Part shown: positions 6,214-64,000 of the stretch, piece after piece | Layout of the letters: each line of letters opens with the position of its first letter | How positions within the stretch are numbered: the first letter of the stretch is position 1 | The notes under the pieces: model-generated | What the model saw: the letters and a program-made list of their open reading frames with translations, nothing else | Databases searched by the model: none | Told to the model about the DNA's origin: nothing | Origin: Polyangiaceae bacterium | GTDB taxonomy: Bacteria > Myxococcota_A > Polyangia > Polyangiales > Polyangiaceae | DNA: 64,000 nt | Assembly (NCBI GenBank): GCA_020849655.1 | Contig: JADLFU010000044.1 | Coordinates: 1 to 64,000 of the forward strand | Reading direction: 5' to 3' | Program-made: the position numbers and the translations under genes

Positions 6214-7272
6214 ATGCCCGGAAAAATCCTGGTCACTGGCGCGACGGGCTTCGTCGGCGCGCGCCTCGTCCGGCGGCTCGTCGACGACGGGCACCGCGTG
6301 AAGGCGATGGTGCGCGCGTCGTCGTCGCTGCGGATGCTGCGCGATCTGCCGCCCGAGCAGCTCGAGATCGTCGAGGGCGACGTGCTGATGGGCGCGACGG
6401 TGTTCCGCGCGCTCGCCGGGTGCGATCGCCTGTTCCACGTCGCGACGATGACGAAGTTCTGGGACCGCACCCCCGGCCTCATCGAGCAGACGGCCGCGCG
6501 CGGCACCGAGCTCGTCATGGAGATGGCCCGCCGCCGCGGCGTCTCGCGGGTCGTCTTCACGTCATCGGTCGCGACGCTCGGCGCGCTCGCGTCCGAGGGC
6601 GAGATGGATGAGACGCACGAGCTCAACCTCGCCGATCCCGACGAGTACGTCCGCGGCAAGCACCGCGCCGAGCAGATCGCGCTGTCGCACGCGTCCTCCG
6701 GGCTCGAGGTCGTCGCGGTGCTGCCCGGCGTGATCGTCGGCCCCGGCGACTGGAAGCCCGCGCCCGGCGGCAAGGGGATCCTCGCGTTCCTCGGCTGGAG
6801 CGCGCCGCTCGTCGACTTCCCGGTGCTCGGCGGCGGCATCAACGGCGTCGACGTCGACGACGTGGTCGGCGGCCACGTCCTCGCGATGGAGAAGGGCCGC
6901 TCGGGCGAGCGCTACATCCTCGGCGGCGAGAACGCGACGTTCGAGCAGTTCTTCAACATGCTCGCCGAGGTGAGCGGGCTGCCGAGCCCCGGCGGCCCCG
7001 TCTCGAAGGGCCTCGCGGAGCTGCTCGGGCGCCTCCTCGAGCTGCGCGCGCGGCTCACCGGCAAGGAGCCCGACTTCACCTACCGCGAGGCGCGCGACTT
7101 CGGCGCCGCGTACTCGTGGGTCACGTCGAAGAAGGCCGAGGACGAGCTCGGCTACACGCACCGGCCGCTGCGGCGCGCGCTCGCCCGCGCGGTGCAGTGG
7201 TACCTCGCGAACGGCTACGTGAAGCCCGCCGACGTCGCGCGCATCCGCGTCGATCTGCGCCTCCCCGCGTGA
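6214..7272 (+). CDS. NAD(P)-dependent epimerase/dehydratase (extended SDR)
   Basis: 352 residues. The Rossmann motif GATGFVG is at residues 9-15 and the catalytic YxxxK is Y145-K149 (YVRGK), with the SS motif before it (FTSSVATLG). This is the extended short-chain dehydrogenase fold. The overall pattern resembles HpnA-like/dihydroflavonol-reductase-like epimerases that act on sugars or sterol-like substrates. The ATG at 6214 is preferred because it starts directly with MPGKILVTG and because the upstream ATG at 6196 lies in a promoter-like box. It precedes purE with overlapping or near-overlapping ends, but no pathway link is evident. Confidence 0.85.
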
Positions 7273-7277
7273 GCACG

Positions 7278-7796
7278 ATGAAGCGGCGCGCGTCCTCTCC
7301 CGTCGTCGGCGTCATCATGGGCAGCGAGTCCGATCACCCGACGATGGCCGAGGCCGAGGCCGTGCTCACGCGGTTCGGCGTGCCGTTCGAGACGGCCGTG
7401 GTCTCGGCCCACCGCACGCCGGAGCGCATGTTCGAGTGGGCGAAGACAGCGGCGTCGCGCGGGCTGCGCGTCGTCATCGCGGGCGCGGGCGGCGCCGCGC
7501 ACCTGCCTGGCATGGTCGCGTCGTTGACGCCGCTGCCGGTGCTCGGCGTGCCGGTGCAGTCGAAGGCGCTCTCGGGGCTCGACAGCCTGCTGTCGATCGT
7601 CCAGATGCCCGCGGGCGTCCCCGCGGCGACGTTCGCGATCGGCCCGGCGGGCGCGGCGAACGCGGCGCTCTTCGCGGTGCGGATGCTGGCGACGTCCGAC
7701 CGGCGCCTCGCGGCGGCGCTCGCGCGGTTCCGCGACGAGAACGTGCAGAAGGTGCTGGACGGCGACGCGCGCGTGAAGAAGGGCGCGCGGCCGTGA
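7278..7796 (+). CDS. purE: N5-carboxyaminoimidazole ribonucleotide mutase
   Basis: 172 residues. The nucleotide-binding GSESD (15-19), catalytic-loop SAHRTP with H45 and [10 protein letters not shown] (69-78) are all intact, as in class I PurE. It moves the carboxyl group from N5-CAIR to CAIR in purine synthesis. A GTG at 7269 in the same frame overlaps the previous stop (GTGA) and would add three residues, so either start is possible. The stop overlaps the GTG of purK, the usual purEK pairing, so translation of the two is probably coupled. Confidence 0.95.
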
Positions 7797-9010
7797 TCGC
7801 GCGGCCGTCGTCGAGCGTGACCGCGCGGGTCGGCATCCTCGGCGGCGGTCAGCTCGGCATGATGCTCGCGGGATCGCTCTACAAGCTCGGCGCCGACGTC
7901 GCGCTCTACGATCCCGATCCGCACGCGCCCGCGCGGCGCCGCTACGCCCACGTCACGACCGCCGCGTGGACGGACAGGGCCGCGCTCGCGAGGTTCTTCT
8001 CCGAGGTCGACGTCGTCACCTACGAGTTCGAGAACGTCGACGCGACCGTCATCACCGAGCTCGCCGGCTCGATCCCGTTTCGCCCCGGCCTCTCGGTGCT
8101 GACGACGACCCAGGATCGCCTCGCCGAGAAGCGCCTGTGCAGGGCGCATGGCCTGCCGCACGCGCGCTTCGAGGCCGCGTCCTGTGCCGACGAGCTGCGC
8201 GAGGTCGGGCGCGCGTTCGGTCTCCCGTTCATCGTCAAGACGGCGCGCGGCGGCTACGACGGCAAGGGGCAGGCGCGCGTCGTCGACGAGGCGTCGCTCG
8301 ACCGCGCGGCGGCGCAGCTCTTCGCCGACGGCGCGGCCCGTCGCTCGCTCATCCTCGAGGAGATCGTGCCCTTCACGATGGAGGCGAGCTGCATCGTCGC
8401 GCGCGACGCGGCGGGGCGCGCCGAGGTGTTCCCCGTGTTCGAGAACCACCACGAGCGCCACGTGCTCGACTGGACCCTCGTCCCCGCGCGCCTGCCGCCC
8501 GCGGTCGCCGACGCAGCGCGCGAGATCGCGCTCGACGCGGCGCGCGCGATGGACGTCGTCGGGCTGCTGACGACCGAGCTGTTCGTCGCACAGGCGGGCG
8601 CGGGCGGCAGGACGGTCGGCGAGCACGCGATCTTCGTGAACGAGTTCGCGCCGCGCCCGCACAACTCGGGGCACGTGACGCGCACCGCGACGACGCTGAG
8701 CCAGTTCGACGCGCTCGCGCGCATCCTCTGTGAGCTGCCGCTCTCGTCGCCGCGCCTGCTGAACGACGGCGCGTTCGTGATGGGCAACCTGCTCGGCGAT
8801 CTGTGGCTCGAGCGCGGCGCGCCGCACCTCGCGTTCGAGGAGTGGGCGCGTCACCCCGAGGTGCTCGACGTCGTGCTCTACGGCAAGCACGAGGCGCGAC
8901 CCGGCCGGAAGATGGGCCATTTCGTCGCGCACGCGCCCGATCCCTCGCAGGCGATCGACGCCGTCGCCGCGTTCCGGCGCGCGCTCGGGCAGGCGCACCC
9001 CGCGGGCTGA
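7793..9010 (+). CDS. purK: N5-carboxyaminoimidazole ribonucleotide synthase
   Basis: 405 residues, ATP-grasp fold. The N-terminal [10 protein letters not shown] (about 15-24) and the central [12 protein letters not shown] loop are PurK hallmarks. [11 protein letters not shown] (about 283-293) is the metal- and substrate-binding segment. The enzyme makes N5-CAIR from AIR, ATP and bicarbonate, the step before PurE. The GTG start overlaps the purE stop as GTGA, an operon arrangement seen in many bacteria. Length is slightly above the usual 360-390 residues because of a short N-terminal lead. Confidence 0.95.
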
Positions 9011-9055
9011 GCTCGCCCCACCGACAGCGCACGGCCGACAGCCGCGTCGACGGCC

Positions 9056-10186
9056 TCAGCGCTCGGCGCGCTCCACCGCGGCCTTCGGCTGGACGACCCC
9101 CCAGCCCTGGCGCTCCACCGGCACGTGCGGCAGCCGCACCGCCGTCTCGATCAGGATGCGCTTGACCTCGTGCGGCAACAGCCGAGGGTTGGCCTCCAGC
9201 ATCGTCGCCACGATCGACGACACGATCGGCGCGGCGAACGACGTGCCGTCGACGTGCTTGTAGTGGCCGTCGATGACCTTCTGATCGTGCAGCTGCGCGG
9301 CGACGATCTGCCGCACGAGGTACGGCTCGCGGCCGCGGGCCTCGTCGAGCACGCGCATCGTGCCGGCGCGGCGCGCGAGGATGCCCTGCAGCTCGCCGTC
9401 CTCTGCCTCGTCGAGCTCGTGCAGCAGCTTCGCCTCCTCGCTCGTCGGCGTGCCAGGCAAGAGCGGCGCGGCGAGCCAGATGGCGGGCGCGATCACCTCG
9501 GGCTTCTGCAGGCCGTCGATGGTGGGTCCGTACGAGGAGTGGTACGGGCTGACCCGCCCGAGCCGGGGGTTGCCCTCGTCGTTGACGCCGCCGACCGTGA
9601 TGACGGCGGGGGCGCTGGCGGGCGGCACGACGGGGTGCGTCGGCTCGTGCCCAGCGTTGCCGGCGGCGCACACGAGCACGATGCCGGCGCGCACGCAGGC
9701 CTCCGCCATGCGTGACAAGTGATCCTTGAGGTACGTCGCCTCGTAGTCACCGCCGCAGGAGATGTTGAGCACGCGGATGTTGTGGCGCACCATGTTGGCG
9801 AGCACCCACTCCATCCCGAGCGCGATGTCGTCGTGGCGGATGCGCGAGAGGCTGCCGACCTTCACCAGCACCACCTCGGCCTCGCTCGCCAGGCCCTTGT
9901 AGCGGCCCTCCGACAGGCTGCCGTTGCCCGCGCAGACGACGCTGGTCATCATGCCGTGCCAGGCGGAGGGGTTCGGCGTGGTGAGGCGCTCGACGCCGCG
10001 GTCGCCGGAGAGCACGTCGAAGTACTCGCGCACGCGCGTGCGAGGCGTCATCAGGTCGGGGTGAGCGTAGAACCCGGCGTCGAGGAACGCGATCGTCACG
10101 CCGCGCCCCGCGTACCTGCCCGCGCCGCCGAGGCGGTCGGAGATCGGGAGGATGCGCTCCGCCTGCTTCGACTTTCCCTTCGCCAT
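9056..10186 (-). CDS. Subtilisin-like serine peptidase (S8), no signal peptide
   Basis: 376 residues from the ATG at 10186. The catalytic triad is D36 (FLDAGF), H77 (SAWHGMM) and S316 (DGTSFAAP), with the oxyanion Asn N177 in CAAGNAGH. Unlike secreted subtilases it has no signal peptide and no propeptide; the fold starts about residue 25. Between the last core strand and the Ser motif (about 245-310) there is an acidic, helical insert of about 65 residues. A cytoplasmic processing or degradative role is inferred. An ATG at 10204 would add six residues but would overlap an alternative start of the divergent RNase HI gene. Confidence 0.88.
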   Translation of the reverse strand: MAKGKSKQAERILPISDRLGGAGRYAGRGVTIAFLDAGFYAHPDLMTPRTRVREYFDVLSGDRGVERLTTPNPSAWHGMMTSVVCAGNGSLSEGRYKGLASEAEVVLVKVGSLSRIRHDDIALGMEWVLANMVRHNIRVLNISCGGDYEATYLKDHLSRMAEACVRAGIVLVCAAGNAGHEPTHPVVPPASAPAVITVGGVNDEGNPRLGRVSPYHSSYGPTIDGLQKPEVIAPAIWLAAPLLPGTPTSEEAKLLHELDEAEDGELQGILARRAGTMRVLDEARGREPYLVRQIVAAQLHDQKVIDGHYKHVDGTSFAAPIVSSIVATMLEANPRLLPHEVKRILIETAVRLPHVPVERQGWGVVQPKAAVERAER

Positions 10187-55804: not shown

Positions 55805-57129
55805 TGCCGCGCGCGTGGTGGGCCCTCCTCGCGCTCGCGGCCTGTCGCCAGGTGGGCGGCGTGTACGACGACGTGCAGCCCGCGGCGCCTGGAGCGGAGG
55901 CCGGGGCCGGAGGCGGATCGTCGCCCGCCGCGGGCGCGAGCGGCCGCGCCGGGGCCGCGGCGTCCGGCGGCGCCTCGGGGAGCGCGGGGACCGGCGGCGC
56001 GGGAGCCGCGGGCGCGAGCGGGGGCCTCGCTGGGATCGGAGGCGCGGGGGCCGGCGGTGCCTCGGGCACCGGCGGGGCGGGCGCCGGCAACAGCGGCGCC
56101 GCGGGGATCGCGGGCGCGAGCGGTGCGGGCGCTGGCGGAGCCGCAGGCAACGGCGGGGGCGGGATGAGCGGCGGAGCTGCCGGCAACGCTGGCGCAGGGA
56201 TGAGTGGCGGAGCCGCCGGCGACGCTGGCGCAGGGATGAGTGGCGGAGCCGCCGGCAACGCTGGCGCAGGGATGAGTGGCGGAGCCGCCGGCAACGCTGG
56301 CGCAGGGATGAGTGGCGGAGCCGCCGGCAACGCTGGCGCAGGGATGAGTGGCGGAGCCGCCGGCAGCGCTGGCGCAGGGATGAGTGGCGGAGCGGCTGGC
56401 AACGCTGGCGGGGGCGGCTCGCTGTCGTGCCCCGTCGCCAAGCGCGGCGCGGCGCTCGTGTGGGTCGCGGGCACCTGCGTCGACCGGACGGAGGTCACGC
56501 TCGAGGAGTTCCAGGCCTTCGTCGCTGACGGCACCTACACACCGCCTCCCGGCCTCACGTACGGCTCGTGCGCGTCGAGCCCGGCGCTGCGGTTCCAGCA
56601 TGTCTCGGGGGATCCACCCGGGATGCCCGCCCGCGGCGTCACCCACTGCGGCGCGCGCTCGTACTGTGACTGGGCGGGCAAGCGACTGTGCGGAGCGCCC
56701 GGCGGCGGCGTCGCGCAGCCGACGACCACCTCGTCGCCCGTCGACGACGAATGGACCCGGGCGTGCATGGGCGGCACGGCGCCGCGCTCGTACCCCTACG
56801 GAACGGGCTTCACGGCGACGCCCCAGGTCTGTGACGACGACGTGCGCTTCACCTGGCCGGTGAGCTGCAAGGACGCAGGGGGCTGCGCGCTGGAGGCCGC
56901 CGCCGGGCCGACGATGTGCGAGAGCCCGCAGGGGGTCCTGCACCTCCTCGGGAACGTGTACGAGTGGACGGACGCGTGCGACGAGGGCGCGTCGCCCATC
57001 ACTTGCGCGCTCCGCGGCGGCAGCTTCACGGAGTTTCACAGCGACGTGAACTGCTACCTCACCCGGCAGCAGCCCGTCGCCGAGACGAACCCGGACGTCG
57101 GCCTGCGCTGCTGCGCGACGCCGCTGTGA
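55804..57129 (+). CDS. FGE-like (SUMF1 fold) lipoprotein with long Gly-rich tether
   Basis: 441 residues from an ATG sharing one base with the previous stop. The signal is short and ends in LAAC (lipobox). Then about 190 residues of Gly/Ala/Ser follow, including seven GMSGGAAGNAGA units. The FGE fold (about 205-441) has FCVDxTE-like CVDRTEVTLEEF, GKRLCGAP, DDEWTRACMGG, YPYG, LLGNVYEWTDAC, ALRGGSF and VGLRCC. The catalytic Cys pair of true FGEs is not evident, so it is probably a non-enzymatic or altered member. It shares this fold with the gene at 38909. Confidence 0.82.
   Translation: MPRAWWALLALAACRQVGGVYDDVQPAAPGAEAGAGGGSSPAAGASGRAGAAASGGASGSAGTGGAGAAGASGGLAGIGGAGAGGASGTGGAGAGNSGAAGIAGASGAGAGGAAGNGGGGMSGGAAGNAGAGMSGGAAGDAGAGMSGGAAGNAGAGMSGGAAGNAGAGMSGGAAGNAGAGMSGGAAGSAGAGMSGGAAGNAGGGGSLSCPVAKRGAALVWVAGTCVDRTEVTLEEFQAFVADGTYTPPPGLTYGSCASSPALRFQHVSGDPPGMPARGVTHCGARSYCDWAGKRLCGAPGGGVAQPTTTSSPVDDEWTRACMGGTAPRSYPYGTGFTATPQVCDDDVRFTWPVSCKDAGGCALEAAAGPTMCESPQGVLHLLGNVYEWTDACDEGASPITCALRGGSFTEFHSDVNCYLTRQQPVAETNPDVGLRCCATPL
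56161..56412 (+). repeat. 36-bp tandem repeat, seven copies (GMSGGAAGNAGA tether)
   Basis: Seven 36-bp units in frame. Units 3, 4 and 5 (56233-56340) are identical at every base, and the outer units carry single changes. This suggests growth or homogenisation from the middle. Confidence 0.95.
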
Positions 57130-57471: not shown

Positions 57472-60400
57472 TCACGCGTCCGGCGCGCGCCTCCGCCAGC
57501 GCTCGAGCAGCGTGTACATGGCTGGCAGCACGAGCAGCGTCAGCAACGTCGCCGTCAGGATGCCGCCGATGACGACGGTCGCGAGCGGGCGCTGCACCTC
57601 GGCGCCCGCGCCGCGCGACAGCGCCATCGGCAAGAACCCGATCGACGCGACGAGCGCCGTCGTCAGGACGGCGCGCAGCCGCCCCTCGGCCCCCTGCCGC
57701 ACCGCCTCGTCGACGCCGAGCCCGTCCGCGCGCAGCCGCTCGATCGAGGTGACGAGCACCAGGCCGTTCAGCACCGCGACGCCGAACAGCGCGATGAACC
57801 CGACCCCCGCGGAGATGCTGAACTCCAGGCCTCGCGCCCAGAGCGCGAGCACCCCGCCCGTCGCCGCGACCGGGATGTTGAGAAAAATGAGGATGGCTGG
57901 ACGCACCTTCCCGAAGCTCGCGACGAGCAGGACGAGGATGAGCAGGAGCGTCACGGGCACCACCATCTTCAGGCGCGCCTCGGCCGACTGCAGCCGCTGG
58001 AACTCCCCGACCCACTCGTAGGAGTAGCCCGTGGGCAGCGGCACGCCCTCTGTCACCGCGCGCTCGGCGGCGCCCATGAACGACGCGAGATCGCGGCCTC
58101 GCACGTTCGCCTGCACCGTCACGCGGCGCTGCAGGCGCTCGCGGCTGATCGACGACGGGCCGGGGTTCTCGCTCAGGGTCGCGAGCTGCGAGAGCGGCAG
58201 CATCGCCCCGCCCGGCGCTCGCACCGGCAAGGCGGCGATCAGCTCGCGCTCGGCGCGCGCCTCGGGCGCGAAGCGCACCTGCAAGGGCACGCGCCGCTGC
58301 CCCTCGTAGACGACGCCGACCTGCTTGCCGCCGATGGCCTCGACGGCCGTCATCACGCTCGCCGCGTCGACGCCGTAGCGGGCGACGGCGGCGCGGTCGA
58401 CGCGGACGTCGAGGCTGTTGAGCCCCGCGATCGCCTCGGCCTGGACGTCCGCCGCGCCGGGGATGGGCGCGAGCACGTCGTGCACCTTGTCGGCGAGCAC
58501 CTTCAGCTGCGACAGATCGTCGCCGTAGATGTTCACCGCGACGTCCGCGGAGATGCCCGCGAGCAGGTCGGAGGTGTTCATCTCGATGGGCTGCGTGTAC
58601 GCGAACGACGCCCCCGGGATGCGCTTCGTCAGCGCGTCGTCGAAGACCTTGACCAGCCCCTCGCTGTCGCGCGCCGACGTCCACTGCTCCTTCGGCTTCA
58701 GCATCACGTAGACGTCCGTCATGTTGATGCCCATCGGATCGACGGCGATCTCGGCGCGCCCCGTGCGAGAGATGACCGAGGTGACCTCGGGGAAGGTCCG
58801 CAGGAGCCTCTCGACCTCCATCGTCGTCCGCGTCGCCTCCGGCAGAGACACAGACGGCAGCCTCACCATCGCGAGCACGAACGTGCCCTCGTCGAGCCGG
58901 GGCATGAACTCGCGCCCGAGCCGCGCGCCCGCGAAGCCGCTCGCCACGAGCCCCGCCGCCGCGATCGACGCCGTGAGCACGGGGCGGCGCAGCGCCGCGG
59001 AGAGCGACGGGAGGTACGCCCTGCGCGCCGCGCGGATGAGCAGGCTCTCCTTCGTGTGGGCTCGCAAGGAGAGCGCGACGGAGGCGAGCGCGGGCACGAC
59101 GGTGAGCGACAGCACGAAGGCCCCGGCGAGCGCGAAGAGCACCGTCAGCGCCATCGGGCGGAACATCCGCCCCTCGACGCCCTCGAGCGTCAGGATGGGC
59201 AGGTAGACGAGCGCGATGATCCCCTCGCCGAACGCCGTCGCCGTCCTCACCTCGCACGCCGCCGCGAGCACCGCCTCGCCGCGCTCCTTGCCCGTGAGCG
59301 GCCGGCCGAGCGCGGTCGCGCGCTCCGTGATGTGCCGCTCGGCGTTCTCGACGATGATGATCGCGCCGTCGACGACCAGGCCGAAGTCGATCGCGCCGAG
59401 GCTCATCAGGTTGCCTGGCACGCCGGCCGCCCACATCCCGAGGAACGCCGCGAGCAGCGCGAGCGGGATGGCGATCGCGACGACGCCGCCCGCGCGCAGG
59501 CTCCCGAGCAGGACGAGCAGCAGCACGGCGACGAGCGCGCTCGCCTCGAGCAGGTTCGTCGCGACCGTGTGCACGGTGCGCGCGACCAGATCCGTGCGCT
59601 TGTAGTACGGCTCGATGGTCACGCCCTTCGGCAGGCTGCGCGAGACGTCGGCGAGCGACTCCTCGATGCGCTTGACGGTCTCGTACGAGTTCGCCCCCTG
59701 CAGCAGCACGGCGACCCCGACGACGGCCTCGCGCTCGCCGTCGCGCGTCACCGCGCCGTGCCGGGGGATGGGCGCGATCGCGGCCCGGCCGACGTCCCGC
59801 ACGTAGACGGGCGTCCTGTCGCTGCGGTACGCGACGATGACGTGCTCGAGGTCGGACAGCGAGCGCACGCGCGCGTCGCCGCGGACGAGCACGCGCTCGC
59901 GATCGTCGTCGTAGTACGCGCCGCCGGCGGCCGAGTGGTTCTGCGAGAGCGCGCGCACGACGTCCGACGCGTCGACGCGCGTCGCCACCATCCGCGCGGG
60001 GTCGAGCTGCACCTCGTAGGCGCGCGCCTCGCCGCCGAACGCGTTGACCTCGGTGACGCCCTCCAGCATCCGCAGGCGCGGCGCGATCTGCCAGTCGAGC
60101 ACCGCGCGCCTGTCCATGAGCGACGTGTCGTCGCCGCGCACCTCGAAGTGGAACACCTCGCCCAGGCCCGTCGAGATCGGCCCGAGCTGCGGCCGCCCGA
60201 CCTCCTCGGGGATGTCGGCCGCCACCTGCTCCACCCGCTGCGCGACGAGCTGCCGCGCCTGGTGCAGCTCCGTGCCCTCGCGGAACACGACGGTCACCAC
60301 CGAGATCCCGGTGCGCGACACGCTCCTCACCTGCTCGAGCCCCGGCAGGCCGCCCATCGCGAGCTCGACCGGCAGGGTCACGTTGCTCTCGACGTCGAGC

Positions 60401-60573
60401 GGGCCGAGCGCGGGGCACGAGGTCTGCACCTGCACCTGCACGTTCGTCACGTCGGGCACGGCGTCGATCGGCAGCGCGCGCGCGGCGGCGAGGCCCACCA
60501 GCGCGAACACGAGCGTGAGCAAGAAGACGAGCGCGCGGTTCTCGATCGAGGCTGCGACGAGGCGCGCGATCAA
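57472..60573 (-). CDS. Heavy-metal RND efflux pump inner-membrane subunit (CusA/CzcA type)
   Basis: 1033 residues from a TTG at 60573 whose TTGA overlaps the stop of the adaptor gene. The RND layout is complete: an N-terminal membrane helix, a periplasmic domain (IDAVPDVTNVQVQVQT), a group of six helices with the proton-relay segment GAIDFGLVVDGAIIIVENAE, a second periplasmic domain and the last helices. The DFGLVVDGAI-ENAER motif is typical of the HME (metal) subfamily. It would expel Cu/Ag- or Co/Zn/Cd-type ions by proton exchange. Metal choice cannot be read here. No outer-membrane CusC-type gene is adjacent. Confidence 0.92.
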   Translation of the reverse strand: MIARLVAASIENRALVFLLTLVFALVGLAAARALPIDAVPDVTNVQVQVQTSCPALGPLDVESNVTLPVELAMGGLPGLEQVRSVSRTGISVVTVVFREGTELHQARQLVAQRVEQVAADIPEEVGRPQLGPISTGLGEVFHFEVRGDDTSLMDRRAVLDWQIAPRLRMLEGVTEVNAFGGEARAYEVQLDPARMVATRVDASDVVRALSQNHSAAGGAYYDDDRERVLVRGDARVRSLSDLEHVIVAYRSDRTPVYVRDVGRAAIAPIPRHGAVTRDGEREAVVGVAVLLQGANSYETVKRIEESLADVSRSLPKGVTIEPYYKRTDLVARTVHTVATNLLEASALVAVLLLVLLGSLRAGGVVAIAIPLALLAAFLGMWAAGVPGNLMSLGAIDFGLVVDGAIIIVENAERHITERATALGRPLTGKERGEAVLAAACEVRTATAFGEGIIALVYLPILTLEGVEGRMFRPMALTVLFALAGAFVLSLTVVPALASVALSLRAHTKESLLIRAARRAYLPSLSAALRRPVLTASIAAAGLVASGFAGARLGREFMPRLDEGTFVLAMVRLPSVSLPEATRTTMEVERLLRTFPEVTSVISRTGRAEIAVDPMGINMTDVYVMLKPKEQWTSARDSEGLVKVFDDALTKRIPGASFAYTQPIEMNTSDLLAGISADVAVNIYGDDLSQLKVLADKVHDVLAPIPGAADVQAEAIAGLNSLDVRVDRAAVARYGVDAASVMTAVEAIGGKQVGVVYEGQRRVPLQVRFAPEARAERELIAALPVRAPGGAMLPLSQLATLSENPGPSSISRERLQRRVTVQANVRGRDLASFMGAAERAVTEGVPLPTGYSYEWVGEFQRLQSAEARLKMVVPVTLLLILVLLVASFGKVRPAILIFLNIPVAATGGVLALWARGLEFSISAGVGFIALFGVAVLNGLVLVTSIERLRADGLGVDEAVRQGAEGRLRAVLTTALVASIGFLPMALSRGAGAEVQRPLATVVIGGILTATLLTLLVLPAMYTLLERWRRRAPDA

Positions 60574-61754
60574 TCGTTCTTACCCATCTGATCGCGGAGC
60601 AGCTCGCTCTTCAGGAGGAAGCTGCCCTCGGTGACCACCGGCTCGCCGCTCCGCACGCCCCGCACGATCTCGGCGCGCCCGTGCGTCACCGCGCCCACCT
60701 CGACGGGGCGCATCGCGAAGCGACCGCGCGACAGCTCGACGAACACGAACGGCAGGCCGTCGACGCGCTGGACGGCCGTCCGCGCGACGGTGACCACGGG
60801 CTCCGACGCGGCGCCGTCCCGCGCGAGGACCGCCGTCGCGCTCATGCCCGGCTTCAGCGCGCGGTCGGGGTTCGCGAGCACGATCCGAGCGCGCAGCGAC
60901 TTCGTCGTCGGATCCACCATCGCGCCGAGCTGCTCGACCTTCCCCTCGAAGGTGCGGCCGGGCGCGGCCAGCACGGACACCTCCGCGCGATCGCCCTCGG
61001 CCACCCTCGGGACGAGCCGCTCGTGGACGTCGACGAGCAGCCACACCTCGTCGAGATCGGCGACGACGAACAGCGTGTCCGTCGGGCCCACCGTCTGCCC
61101 CACGCGCGCCGTCGCCTCGAGCACCGCGCCCGCGATCGGCGTCGTCAGGGTGACGTGGCTGCCGCCCGTGGACGAGGTCTTCGGATCGGGGACGCCGGCG
61201 CCGAACGCGCGCAGGCGCTCCTCGGTCGCGCGCAGCTGGATCTTCGCGACGCGCGCGTCGGTGCGCGCCGCGACCACCTCGCGCTCGGTCGTCGCGCGAG
61301 CCTCGACGAGCTTCAGCTCGCGCTCGACCTCGGTGTCGGCGCGTTGCTGCCGCGCGAGCGCCTCGAGGTAGTCGGCGCGCGCCTGGCCCACCTCGACGCT
61401 CTCGACCGACGCGAGCGCCGCGCCCGCCGCGACGCGCGCGCCGATCCGCGCCTGCACGCGCGTGATGCGCCCCGACGCCCTCGGGCCCACCCGCGCGACC
61501 CGGCCCGGCGCGACCTCGATCATGCCCGCGAGCGAGGTGGTCGACGTCGCGCGGGCCTCCACCGCGGGCTCGATCTTCAGCGCCGCCGCCGCGAGCTTCT
61601 CGTCGGCGAGCGAGATGATGTGCTCGCCTGGCCCTGGCGACGCGGGCGAGGACGCGGCAGGGGCGCTCGCGCGCTCGCCTGGCGGCGTCGGGGCGGCCTT
61701 GCAGCTCGCCGCCCCCGCCCCCAAGAGAGAGAGGAAGAGCCAGACTCCGCGCAC
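60570..61754 (-). CDS. RND efflux periplasmic adaptor (CusB/CzcB type), lipoprotein
   Basis: 394 residues from the GTG at 61754. The signal ends in GAASC (lipobox, C18). Barrel and lipoyl halves flank a long helical hairpin: GRVARVGPRASGRITRV, then ARADYLEALARQQRADTEVE as hairpin, TLTTPIAGAVLEATARVGQTV, and the beta-barrel LVDVHERLVPRVAEGDRAEV. It links the CusA-type pump to an outer-membrane channel. The lipid anchor is common in this family. Its start is divergent from the ion-channel gene, with 88 bp between. Confidence 0.9.
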   Translation of the reverse strand: MRGVWLFLSLLGAGAASCKAAPTPPGERASAPAASSPASPGPGEHIISLADEKLAAAALKIEPAVEARATSTTSLAGMIEVAPGRVARVGPRASGRITRVQARIGARVAAGAALASVESVEVGQARADYLEALARQQRADTEVERELKLVEARATTEREVVAARTDARVAKIQLRATEERLRAFGAGVPDPKTSSTGGSHVTLTTPIAGAVLEATARVGQTVGPTDTLFVVADLDEVWLLVDVHERLVPRVAEGDRAEVSVLAAPGRTFEGKVEQLGAMVDPTTKSLRARIVLANPDRALKPGMSATAVLARDGAASEPVVTVARTAVQRVDGLPFVFVELSRGRFAMRPVEVGAVTHGRAEIVRGVRSGEPVVTEGSFLLKSELLRDQMGKND

Positions 61755-61829
61755 GTCCGCCCCTCGTACCACGGCCGGCGCGGAGGCGTTCGATCCTTCC
61801 ACATTCCACACCCGACGATGGGTTCGAGG

Positions 61830-61835
61830 TAACCT
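61830..61835 (+). promoter_or_regulatory. Putative -10 box TAACCT before the ion-channel gene
   Basis: GGTAACCT ends 7 nt before the ATG at 61843, without a ribosome binding site between. The 88-bp divergent interval with the adaptor gene probably holds both promoters. Confidence 0.35.
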
Positions 61836-61842
61836 GGCGCCG

Positions 61843-63102
61843 ATGCGACGCTCGCGCTCGCCGTCCGACAGGCGGCGCTTCCTCTCGCCGCTGCACGCGC
61901 TGTGCGTCGTCGTGGCCGTCGTGCTCGGCGTCGCGATCTTCGCGTCGAAGGGCCGCGCGGCGCCGGCCGGGCCGCCCCTCGGCGTCGCGAGCGGTCGCCC
62001 GATGCCCGTCGCCGCGAGCGGTCGCCCGCCGATCACCTCGGCCAGCGCCGCGCCGCGGCCATCGGCCGCCCCCGCCGCGTCCGGCTCGGCCGCGCCCGCG
62101 GGCTCGGCCGCGTACGTCGAGCCGCTCAGCTACGCCGTCGAGCGCACAGCCGCGGACCTGCCGGCCGATCTCTCGGAGGAGCAGAAGCGCGCCCTCGGCG
62201 TCGGCATGCCGGGCGTGATGATCCAGCGCGAGGGCAAGTTCCGCTCGCCGTTCGCGCACCCGAGGTTCGGCGGCCCCGCGCACGTGCGCGTCGCGATGAC
62301 GCTGGCGGCCGTGCACGACTACGACATCCAGAAGGGCACCTACACCGCCGATTTCTACCTCACGCTGCTCAGCGACAAGGACATGCCCCCGCTCTCGCTC
62401 ATGTTCACGAACGGCAAGGAGGAGAGCAGCGTGAAGCTCGCCGACCTGCCGACGTTCAAGATGTACCGCTTCGTCGGCACGTTCTTTCATCCGGTCGATC
62501 TGCGCGGGTTCCCCGCCGACGCGCAGACGCTCTCGATCCAGATCGAGGCCCAGAACATGGGCATCGATCAGATCGTCTTCGAGGACGACGCCGACCACAC
62601 CTCGCTCGACGCGGGGTTCAGCGTGCCGGGCTGGGACATCGCGTCGCTGAGCGCGACGACCCGCAACCACTACTACCCGTCGAGGTTCCCGCACGACGAT
62701 CTCTACTACTCGCGGTACACGTTCGAGCTGGGGCTGGAGCGGTTCGGCACGTCGGCGATCTTCTCGGTGTTCGTGCCCGCGATCGTCATCGTGCTCATCT
62801 CGCTGCTCGGCATGTGGGTGCCGCCGACCGAGATGGAGGTGCGCAGCAACGCGGGCGCGCCGATGCTGGTCGGCGCCGTCCTGTTCCACTTCTCGCTGAT
62901 GCAGGCGCTGCCCGCCACGGGGTACCTGACGCGCGCCGACAAGCTGATGATCGCGGTCTACGCGTCGCTCGTGATGAACATGGTCTCGACGTGGTTCTTC
63001 TTCCTCGTCGACGAGGAGCGCTGGGATCTCGTGTTCCGAGTCGCGCGCACGCTGGTGCCCATCCTCACGGTGATCGCGATGGTGTCAGGCGTGGTACTTT
63101 GA
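61843..63102 (+). CDS. Pentameric ligand-gated ion channel (Cys-loop fold) homologue
   Basis: 419 residues. An N-terminal membrane signal (about 17-35) and a Pro/Ala/Ser linker (to about 90) precede a beta-rich extracellular domain (about 145-300): MTLAAVHDYDIQKGTYTADFYLTL, a PVDLRGFPADAQTLSIQIE strand pair and the last strand YTFELGLER. Four membrane helices follow: M1 303-325 with the conserved Pro (VFVPAIVIVL), M2 337-356, M3 364-388 (LTRADKLMIAVYASL) and M4 399-418. This is the fold of GLIC/ELIC-type bacterial channels. There is no Cys pair in the loop region, as usual in bacteria. Ligand and ion selectivity are unknown. Confidence 0.85.
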   Translation: MRRSRSPSDRRRFLSPLHALCVVVAVVLGVAIFASKGRAAPAGPPLGVASGRPMPVAASGRPPITSASAAPRPSAAPAASGSAAPAGSAAYVEPLSYAVERTAADLPADLSEEQKRALGVGMPGVMIQREGKFRSPFAHPRFGGPAHVRVAMTLAAVHDYDIQKGTYTADFYLTLLSDKDMPPLSLMFTNGKEESSVKLADLPTFKMYRFVGTFFHPVDLRGFPADAQTLSIQIEAQNMGIDQIVFEDDADHTSLDAGFSVPGWDIASLSATTRNHYYPSRFPHDDLYYSRYTFELGLERFGTSAIFSVFVPAIVIVLISLLGMWVPPTEMEVRSNAGAPMLVGAVLFHFSLMQALPATGYLTRADKLMIAVYASLVMNMVSTWFFFLVDEERWDLVFRVARTLVPILTVIAMVSGVVL

Positions 63103-63110
63103 GCGCCCCG

Positions 63111-63752
63111 ATGGATTCGTCGATCCTCGACCCCGCGCCGGCCGTGGCGCCTGCGCCGACGCTGCCCGAGGCCCGCGCCCCCCGCGCGCCCTGGATCGCG
63201 CTCGGCCTGGGCGTCGGCGTCGCGGCGGGCTTCGCGGCCGGCTACTACGCTGGCGCCGAGCGCATCCGCGAAGATCTCCGTCACCCCTTCAAGCCGGCGC
63301 CGGTCGTCAGCGCGACGCCCTCCGCGACGCCGTCGGGCAAGGCGCCGAGCCCGTCGCCGAAGCCGGGCGCGCTCGTGATGGCCCCGCTGCCGCTCGCCGC
63401 GTCGCGGCGCCTGCTCGCGAAGCAGACGACCGACGACAAGGTGGTGGTCGTGGTCGCCGCCGTCGGCCGCGGCGACGCCGGGCCCGAGCTGCACCTCAGC
63501 GTGAAGAACCGCGGCGACTGCGTCGTCACCGCCGTCGAGGGCGTGGCCTATGGGTTCGACCCTGACGGCGACTCCACCGCGATGAACCTCGGCGGCAAGC
63601 ACTACCTCGCGTTCTCGCACGCGGAGCTGGCGCTGAAGCCGGGGGCCGGCACCGTGCTCAGCTCGCCCGCGCCGCACGCCGAGATCGCGAACATGGCCCT
63701 CGCGCAGATCGACCGCGTCGTGTGCCAGGACGGCCGCACGTTCCAGCGTTGA
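63111..63752 (+). CDS. Single-pass membrane protein, possible partner of the ion-channel homologue
   Basis: 213 residues, starting 8 bp after the channel gene stop, so co-transcription is likely. A Pro/Ala-rich cytosolic start leads to one membrane segment (about 28-48, IALGLGVGVAAGFAAGYYAG), a Ser/Pro/Lys spacer and a beta-rich domain (about 95-213) with two Cys (RGDCVVTAV and VVCQDGRTF) that may form a disulfide. The domain resembles small immunoglobulin-like or DUF4352-like beta-sandwich domains, but I do not recognise it. Topology puts it on the same side as the channel's sensor domain. Confidence 0.7.
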   Translation: MDSSILDPAPAVAPAPTLPEARAPRAPWIALGLGVGVAAGFAAGYYAGAERIREDLRHPFKPAPVVSATPSATPSGKAPSPSPKPGALVMAPLPLAASRRLLAKQTTDDKVVVVVAAVGRGDAGPELHLSVKNRGDCVVTAVEGVAYGFDPDGDSTAMNLGGKHYLAFSHAELALKPGAGTVLSSPAPHAEIANMALAQIDRVVCQDGRTFQR

Positions 63753-63768: not shown

Positions 63769-64000
63769 TCAGTCGCGGCGCATCCAGGGACAGATCTTGA
63801 TGAGGTCCGCGTAGGGCTTGCGCAGGCAGCGGTAGCCGGCCTTCTGGCCGTGCAGGGTGACGTCGCCGCACTCCTGGATCTTCTCGAACGACGCCGTGTC
63901 GCCGGCCTGCGGGGGGCGGTCGCAGTCCGCGACCTTCGTGATGTCCCAGCGATAGAACCCGCGCGCGTCCCACGCGGTGCGCACCTCGGCGACGAGCATC
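63769..64000 (-). CDS. Hypothetical protein, 5' end cut by window edge
   Basis: 77 codons are visible, ending with a TGA at 63769-63771. The frame is open to the right edge, so the true start is probably outside. Four Cys (in VADCDRPP, IQECGDV, GYRCLRK and IKICPWM) are spaced along the segment, suggesting disulfides and an exported protein. Family not recognised. It is convergent with the membrane-protein gene. Confidence 0.6.
   Translation of the reverse strand, partial: MLVAEVRTAWDARGFYRWDITKVADCDRPPQAGDTASFEKIQECGDVTLHGQKAGYRCLRKPYADLIKICPWMRRD

Follow-up and report, generated by a model that had tools for sequence, protein, structure and literature searches.

According to Jaiteh et al. 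(2016; PMC4795631), no biological role is known for any of the pentameric ligand-gated ion channels (pLGICs) of unicellular organisms. GLIC of Gloeobacter is proton-gated (PDB 3eam and others), and ELIC and DeCLIC both respond to divalent cations (PMC3502511, PMC9897478), and the first of these papers places the inhibition of ELIC by divalent cations at a specific extracellular site. Operons that combine a bacterial pLGIC with PBP-II, Cache or Na+/H+ symporter genes were described in 2004 (Tasneem et al., PMC549065), in a text that does not mention metal. No description of an RND neighbour of ELIC or DeCLIC was found, and no paper treating pentameric ligand-gated channels together with CzcA was found in the non-subscription literature searched.

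The locus considered here lies at the end of the window, i.e. the whole stretch of 64,000 nucleotides from a Polyangiaceae bacterium that was analysed, and places a pLGIC homologue between genes for an RND metal pump and genes for two further proteins, here called PARTNER and LIPO. Its features are as follows.

57472..60573, minus strand: CzcA/CusA family heavy-metal RND permease with the divalent-type motif DFGLVVDGAIIIVEN (TIGR00914, ZneA)
60570..61754, minus strand: CzcB/NccB-type periplasmic adaptor of RND metal efflux (TIGR00999, E 7.8e-44; TIGR01730 above cutoff)
61755..61842, no strand: divergent intergenic region of 88 bp between the starts of czcB and the channel gene
61843..63102, plus strand: pLGIC homologue of 419 aa (open reading frame, hydropathy, GLIC alignment, family profile)
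Channel residues about 1-40: probable signal peptide (cleavage sites of relatives)
Channel residues about 41-95: Pro/Ala/Ser linker
Channel residues about 98-130: clade-specific segment
Channel residues about 131-303: beta-rich extracellular domain
Channel residues 306-418: predicted M1-M4
63111..63752, plus strand: PARTNER, 213 aa, with an N-terminal membrane helix, a linker and an Ig-like beta-sandwich (predicted) and invariant C137 and C205
63769..64000, continuing to contig position 64257, minus strand: LIPO, a 162-aa lipoprotein with a lipobox Cys and six invariant Cys, convergent with PARTNER

By alignment and profile comparison, the 419-residue protein is a pLGIC homologue. Its residues 207-413 align without a break to GLIC (phmmer against the PDB, E 6.6e-13 to 3e-12), from the extracellular domain, of which the lower half is covered, and the Pro-loop to M1, M2, M3 and M4, and a profile of the 21-member channel family finds GLIC at E 1.3e-16. 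GLIC is the closest solved relative of the window channel, at the distance of a 51-bit match. In the hydropathy profile, residues 17-35 form an N-terminal hydrophobic segment and M1-M4 fall at about 306-324, 338-356, 370-388 and 400-418, a pattern repeated in most relatives, and the predicted four-helix pore layout follows from this pattern together with the homology. The pLGIC homology proposed in the preliminary description is borne out. What it called an "unusual N-terminal membrane signal" is probably a cleavable signal peptide of the ordinary kind, since relatives show typical signal-peptidase sites after the hydrophobic N-terminus (KVSA|Q, KVGA|Q, KVAA|Q). P224, D226, Q228, P312 and P357 are invariant in the family alignment. 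All 21 family members have matches to NCBIfam LIC and LGIC_1, those of the window channel lying below both curated cut-offs; Pfam gave no match for the window channel, and one relative matches Neur_chan_LBD (E 0.0024). With profile and PDB homology this clear, the missing Pfam match reflects a recognition threshold rather than a defining property of the channel. A search of the window's genome assembly gave no second clear pLGIC, the other matches having E > 0.03 and lying mainly on the linker part.

The M2 helix of the subfamily aligns to GLIC without a gap and carries E-2' (20/21), R0' (21/21), N2' (19/21), P6' (21/21), A or V at 9', L13' (21/21) and H15' (21/21). By analogy to GLIC, E-2' argues for cation selectivity, and its near invariance at the pore mouth makes the channel probably cation-selective. 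The invariant Pro at the pore-facing 6' position is, on this alignment, unusual compared with GLIC. No obvious conserved His/Cys transition-metal site is present in the extracellular domain. Channels of the clade that carries PARTNER contain some 20 additional residues in one segment (about 100-125 in the window channel) that is absent from all other channels; it is a candidate docking element, a hint only, as it marks a single clade and is confounded with phylogeny.

The start codon of PARTNER lies 8 bp behind the channel stop codon, and this spacing together with the conserved gene order suggests that the two genes are co-transcribed. The open reading frame, one predicted membrane helix, a beta domain and two invariant Cys agree with the 213-residue membrane protein of the preliminary description. 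The AlphaFold2 model (mean pLDDT 83.9) begins with a helix at 27-57, continues through a linker of low confidence and a short helix, and ends in a beta-sandwich with pLDDT > 90, the best fold match of which is a Clostridioides hypothetical protein (5tta_A, Z 10.1, rmsd 2.8 over 108 residues). Homologues with 30-38% identity to the window PARTNER follow the channel in seven other loci, and the PARTNER alignment has 19 invariant columns, C137 and C205 among them. Pfam and PDB searches give no clear family: the window protein has no Pfam family match, and weak DUF5780 matches (best E 0.0022) occur in four of eight PARTNER relatives and not in the window protein. Neither PARTNER nor LIPO matches any solute-binding family. 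Seven of eight PARTNER relatives are predicted to be membrane-anchored, and the eighth (L044) starts with an apparent lipoprotein signal instead of the helix, so that the conserved feature would be a membrane-anchored periplasmic domain.

On the other side of the channel, CzcA scores 1125 bits against the CusA/CzcA heavy-metal model TIGR00914 (cutoff 701) and contains the motif DFGxxxDGAxxxxEN, which we take to mark divalent-metal RND pumps. Its closest solved structure is ZneA (E 3.5e-196), ahead of CusA. Judged from the motif and this nearest structure, the substrate would be a divalent metal; an identity as the Cu/Ag pump CusA was rejected, given the motif and the higher score of ZneA. The 88 bp between czcB and the channel gene presumably form a shared promoter region. 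Elsewhere in the window, at about 55900-56450, a long Gly/Ala/Ser/Met repeat (GAGMSGGAAGNA units) lies inside one protein, the C-terminal part of which resembles a formylglycine-generating-enzyme/sulfatase-modifying domain.

Scanning the genome collections with the single channel sequence gave no match, and a six-member channel alignment as query found 28 loci in them and none in viral contigs. The same contigs were counted once (L045 = L038, L052 = L037, L055 = L035, L059 = L036, L062 = L039), and flanking genes were found by iterated profiles. Close homologues from other loci number 20, with 44-55% identity over the alignment, and come nearly all from Polyangiales and other Myxococcota MAGs; the complete Minicystis rosea DSM 24000 genome contributes two, and a MAG labelled Leptospirales contributes one. 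More distant homologues with long N-terminal extensions resembling periplasmic ligand-binding domains were seen at L068-L071, and channel homologues are also present among archaea, in two Woesearchaeota genomes, and as a tandem pair in Paenibacillus cremeus (L065, L066, L067).

PARTNER stands directly 3' of the channel in eight loci (window, L038, L044, L047, L049, L050, L053, L056), all from Polyangiales, and czcB and czcA lie directly upstream and divergent in each of them; the same holds for L037, whose contig breaks off within the channel gene. The divergent czcB/channel orientation is therefore kept in nine loci, and RND genes adjoin the channel in ten, the tenth being L035, where czcB, channel and LIPO share one strand and czcA lies on the other. 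The divergent metal-efflux operon noted in the preliminary description is thus part of a conserved arrangement. Its "dedicated" partner holds as a conserved neighbour, the pair being kept in eight loci, so that the refuting result named there, a partner gene missing beside the channel in all relatives, did not occur, but not as a companion of the channel in general, because PARTNER is confined to the CzcBA-linked clade and the other channel relatives lack it. The window's genome and G012 apart, a search of 12 further genomes gave no PARTNER. Within the flanks read, czcBA is absent from L036, L039, L046, L048, L051, L057, L058, L060 and L061, which keep channel and LIPO; the metal link is thus not universal, about half of the close relatives having no nearby czcBA.

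Six-frame clustering of the neighbours, noisy and then filtered, gave no other broadly shared neighbour, which argues that the association of czc and channel genes is not leftover synteny. What remained was a synteny block shared by three loci that are closely related, a match next to LIPO in three loci and, at a distance from the channel, a weak kinase cluster in four. An apparent OmpR-type response regulator and histidine kinase lie about 0.1-2.3 kb upstream of the channel in the closely related L046, L051 and L064. Channel-bearing genomes that were examined hold 5 to 15 RND relatives each, so that one such adjacency could arise by chance, but chance is not a plausible source of an adjacency that is conserved and repeated.

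The trees of the two proteins match. A clade of ten channels, in which the window protein is basal, takes in nine of the ten that are czc-linked; its remaining member is the second Minicystis copy, which is without those genes. Eight usable channel-linked CzcA proteins (L035 aside) likewise group in a single clade with full support, the window again being basal, and the grouping of L044 with L056 is repeated in both trees. This agreement indicates that the pair has been kept together. The L035 channel sits on another branch and its CzcA belongs to a different CzcA clade, and the link between a pLGIC and an RND pump therefore probably arose twice.

LIPO is the more widespread companion, that of the whole channel subfamily. 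Its stop codon at 63769 lies 17 bp past the end of PARTNER and the gene runs off the window end. It adjoins most channels, convergent in the window and overlapping the channel 3' end in L035 and L036. Among the 35 genomes scored for both, it occurs in 7/7 with a close channel homologue and in 0/28 without, even where more distant pLGICs exist; an exact match of this kind is one arrangement in about 6.7 million (C(35,7)) if phylogeny is ignored, and relatedness weakens the true figure. The co-occurrence is more than adjacency, since in G009 and G012 LIPO lies on a different contig from the channel. In G012 it is within 2 kb of a second czcBA: on contig C91 (L111, 1-6972) the gene lies about 1.9 kb from this pair, with no channel on the contig. 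Structure prediction gives LIPO a small OB/SH3-like barrel to which a further C-terminal part is added; the fold search returned only small OB/SH3-like barrels (Z < 8) that name no family, and Pfam and PDB searches gave no clear family either. Two loci hold more than one copy. In L035, one LIPO gene (7178-7663) overlaps the channel stop codon and another (8674-9150) follows it, the two enclosing an unrelated 306-aa protein (7642-8559) immediately behind the channel. In L053 (6740-10688), two tandem channels of different subclades are arranged as czc/PARTNER-type channel, PARTNER, LIPO-type channel and two convergent LIPO genes.

Based on these comparisons, the reading that we favour, at about even odds (roughly 0.5), is that of an inner-membrane, periplasm-facing pLGIC cation channel serving a module for divalent-metal homeostasis of the envelope together with a CzcBA-type RND pump. 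The channel would be a cation-selective homopentamer that opens or closes on a periplasmic signal tied to metal or proton load. PARTNER, anchored in the membrane on the same periplasmic side, would tune the channel or sense for it, perhaps via the clade-specific N-terminal segment, and LIPO would act as a further accessory, older than PARTNER and common to the whole subfamily. Cation flux could then adjust the membrane potential or the proton supply that drives the RND antiporter, or could signal metal load. Several lines of evidence point to this reading: the order of czcBA, channel and PARTNER kept in eight loci, with RND genes beside the channel in ten; the agreement of the channel and CzcA trees in the basal window and in L044 with L056; the second association, which uses a CzcA of another clade; the divalent-metal type of the pump by motif and ZneA match; the distribution of LIPO (7/7 versus 0/28) and its place beside the second czcBA of G012; and the GLIC homology through M1-M4 with E-2', R0' and N2' in M2. 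The inhibition of ELIC by divalent cations (PMC3502511) is in line with it. The close relatives without czcBA in the flanks read and the extracellular domain without an obvious transition-metal site speak against it. A stronger version, in which the channel would gate cation flux on periplasmic metal or proton load as one functional unit with the divalent-metal exporter through PARTNER as auxiliary subunit, is tentative and rather doubtful; if true, it would give a prokaryotic pLGIC its first biological role and a separate auxiliary subunit.

The main rival is a chemoreceptor that senses a small organic solute, a function put forward for bacterial pLGICs at large; PARTNER or LIPO would then bind the ligand as its accessory, and czcBA would be nearby only through a shared promoter region or stress regulon. 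Fusions and operons of bacterial pLGICs with PBP and Cache solute-binding domains (Tasneem et al., PMC549065) give this a precedent, and the many relatives without czcBA fit it. It explains less well why czcBA stays next to the channel in divergent genera when no other neighbour is broadly conserved, why an RND adjacency was apparently gained a second time with another RND, and why neither companion belongs to a solute-binding family, and we regard it as somewhat unlikely. Alternatively, PARTNER and LIPO could be assembly or stability factors, chaperones or anchors with no part in gating. Animal pLGICs need dedicated assembly factors, and both companions appear periplasmic and membrane-anchored, with no recognised catalytic or ligand-binding family. 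Still, they are unrelated proteins that differ in distribution, some genomes carry LIPO outside the channel operon, and a chaperone would be expected in every clade while PARTNER occurs in one, all of which makes this role improbable. That the channel-PARTNER pair is a chance adjacency or annotation artefact could be suspected from the 30-38% identity of the window PARTNER to its homologues and from the preponderance of MAGs; the same order in eight loci, including the complete Minicystis rosea genome, and the 19 invariant columns with two Cys leave this next to no probability and rule it out.

The repeated, conserved link of a bacterial pLGIC to a divalent-metal efflux pump and two companions makes its role directly testable, and a host whose genome is complete is at hand in the named strain Minicystis rosea DSM 24000. 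If a bacterial pLGIC did bear separate auxiliary proteins, it would moreover be a simple model of how such proteins and assembly factors act on animal receptors.

Compared with the described systems, the pump resembles CzcBA/ZneA systems in its CzcA and CzcB families and its DFGxxxDGA....EN motif, and differs in that no gene for an outer-membrane component was recognised next to czcBA, while channel and PARTNER are divergently encoded. The channel shares with GLIC the lower extracellular domain, the Cys-free Pro-loop, the M1 Pro, an M2 of identical length with E-2', and M3 and M4. However, the subfamily has P6', R0' and A/V9' where GLIC has S6', N0' and I9', it lacks the H11' of GLIC and has an invariant His at 15', and the window channel has in addition a long linker of Pro/Ala, with conserved partner genes and an RND pump encoded beside it. 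ELIC and DeCLIC belong to the same superfamily, but the accessory domain of DeCLIC is its own and fused N-terminally, whereas here the putative accessories are separate membrane-anchored proteins. As in the operons of Tasneem et al., a pLGIC gene is accompanied by a conserved neighbour encoding a periplasmic or membrane protein, but at this locus the neighbours encode a predicted Ig-like anchored protein, a six-Cys lipoprotein and a putative divalent-metal RND pump.
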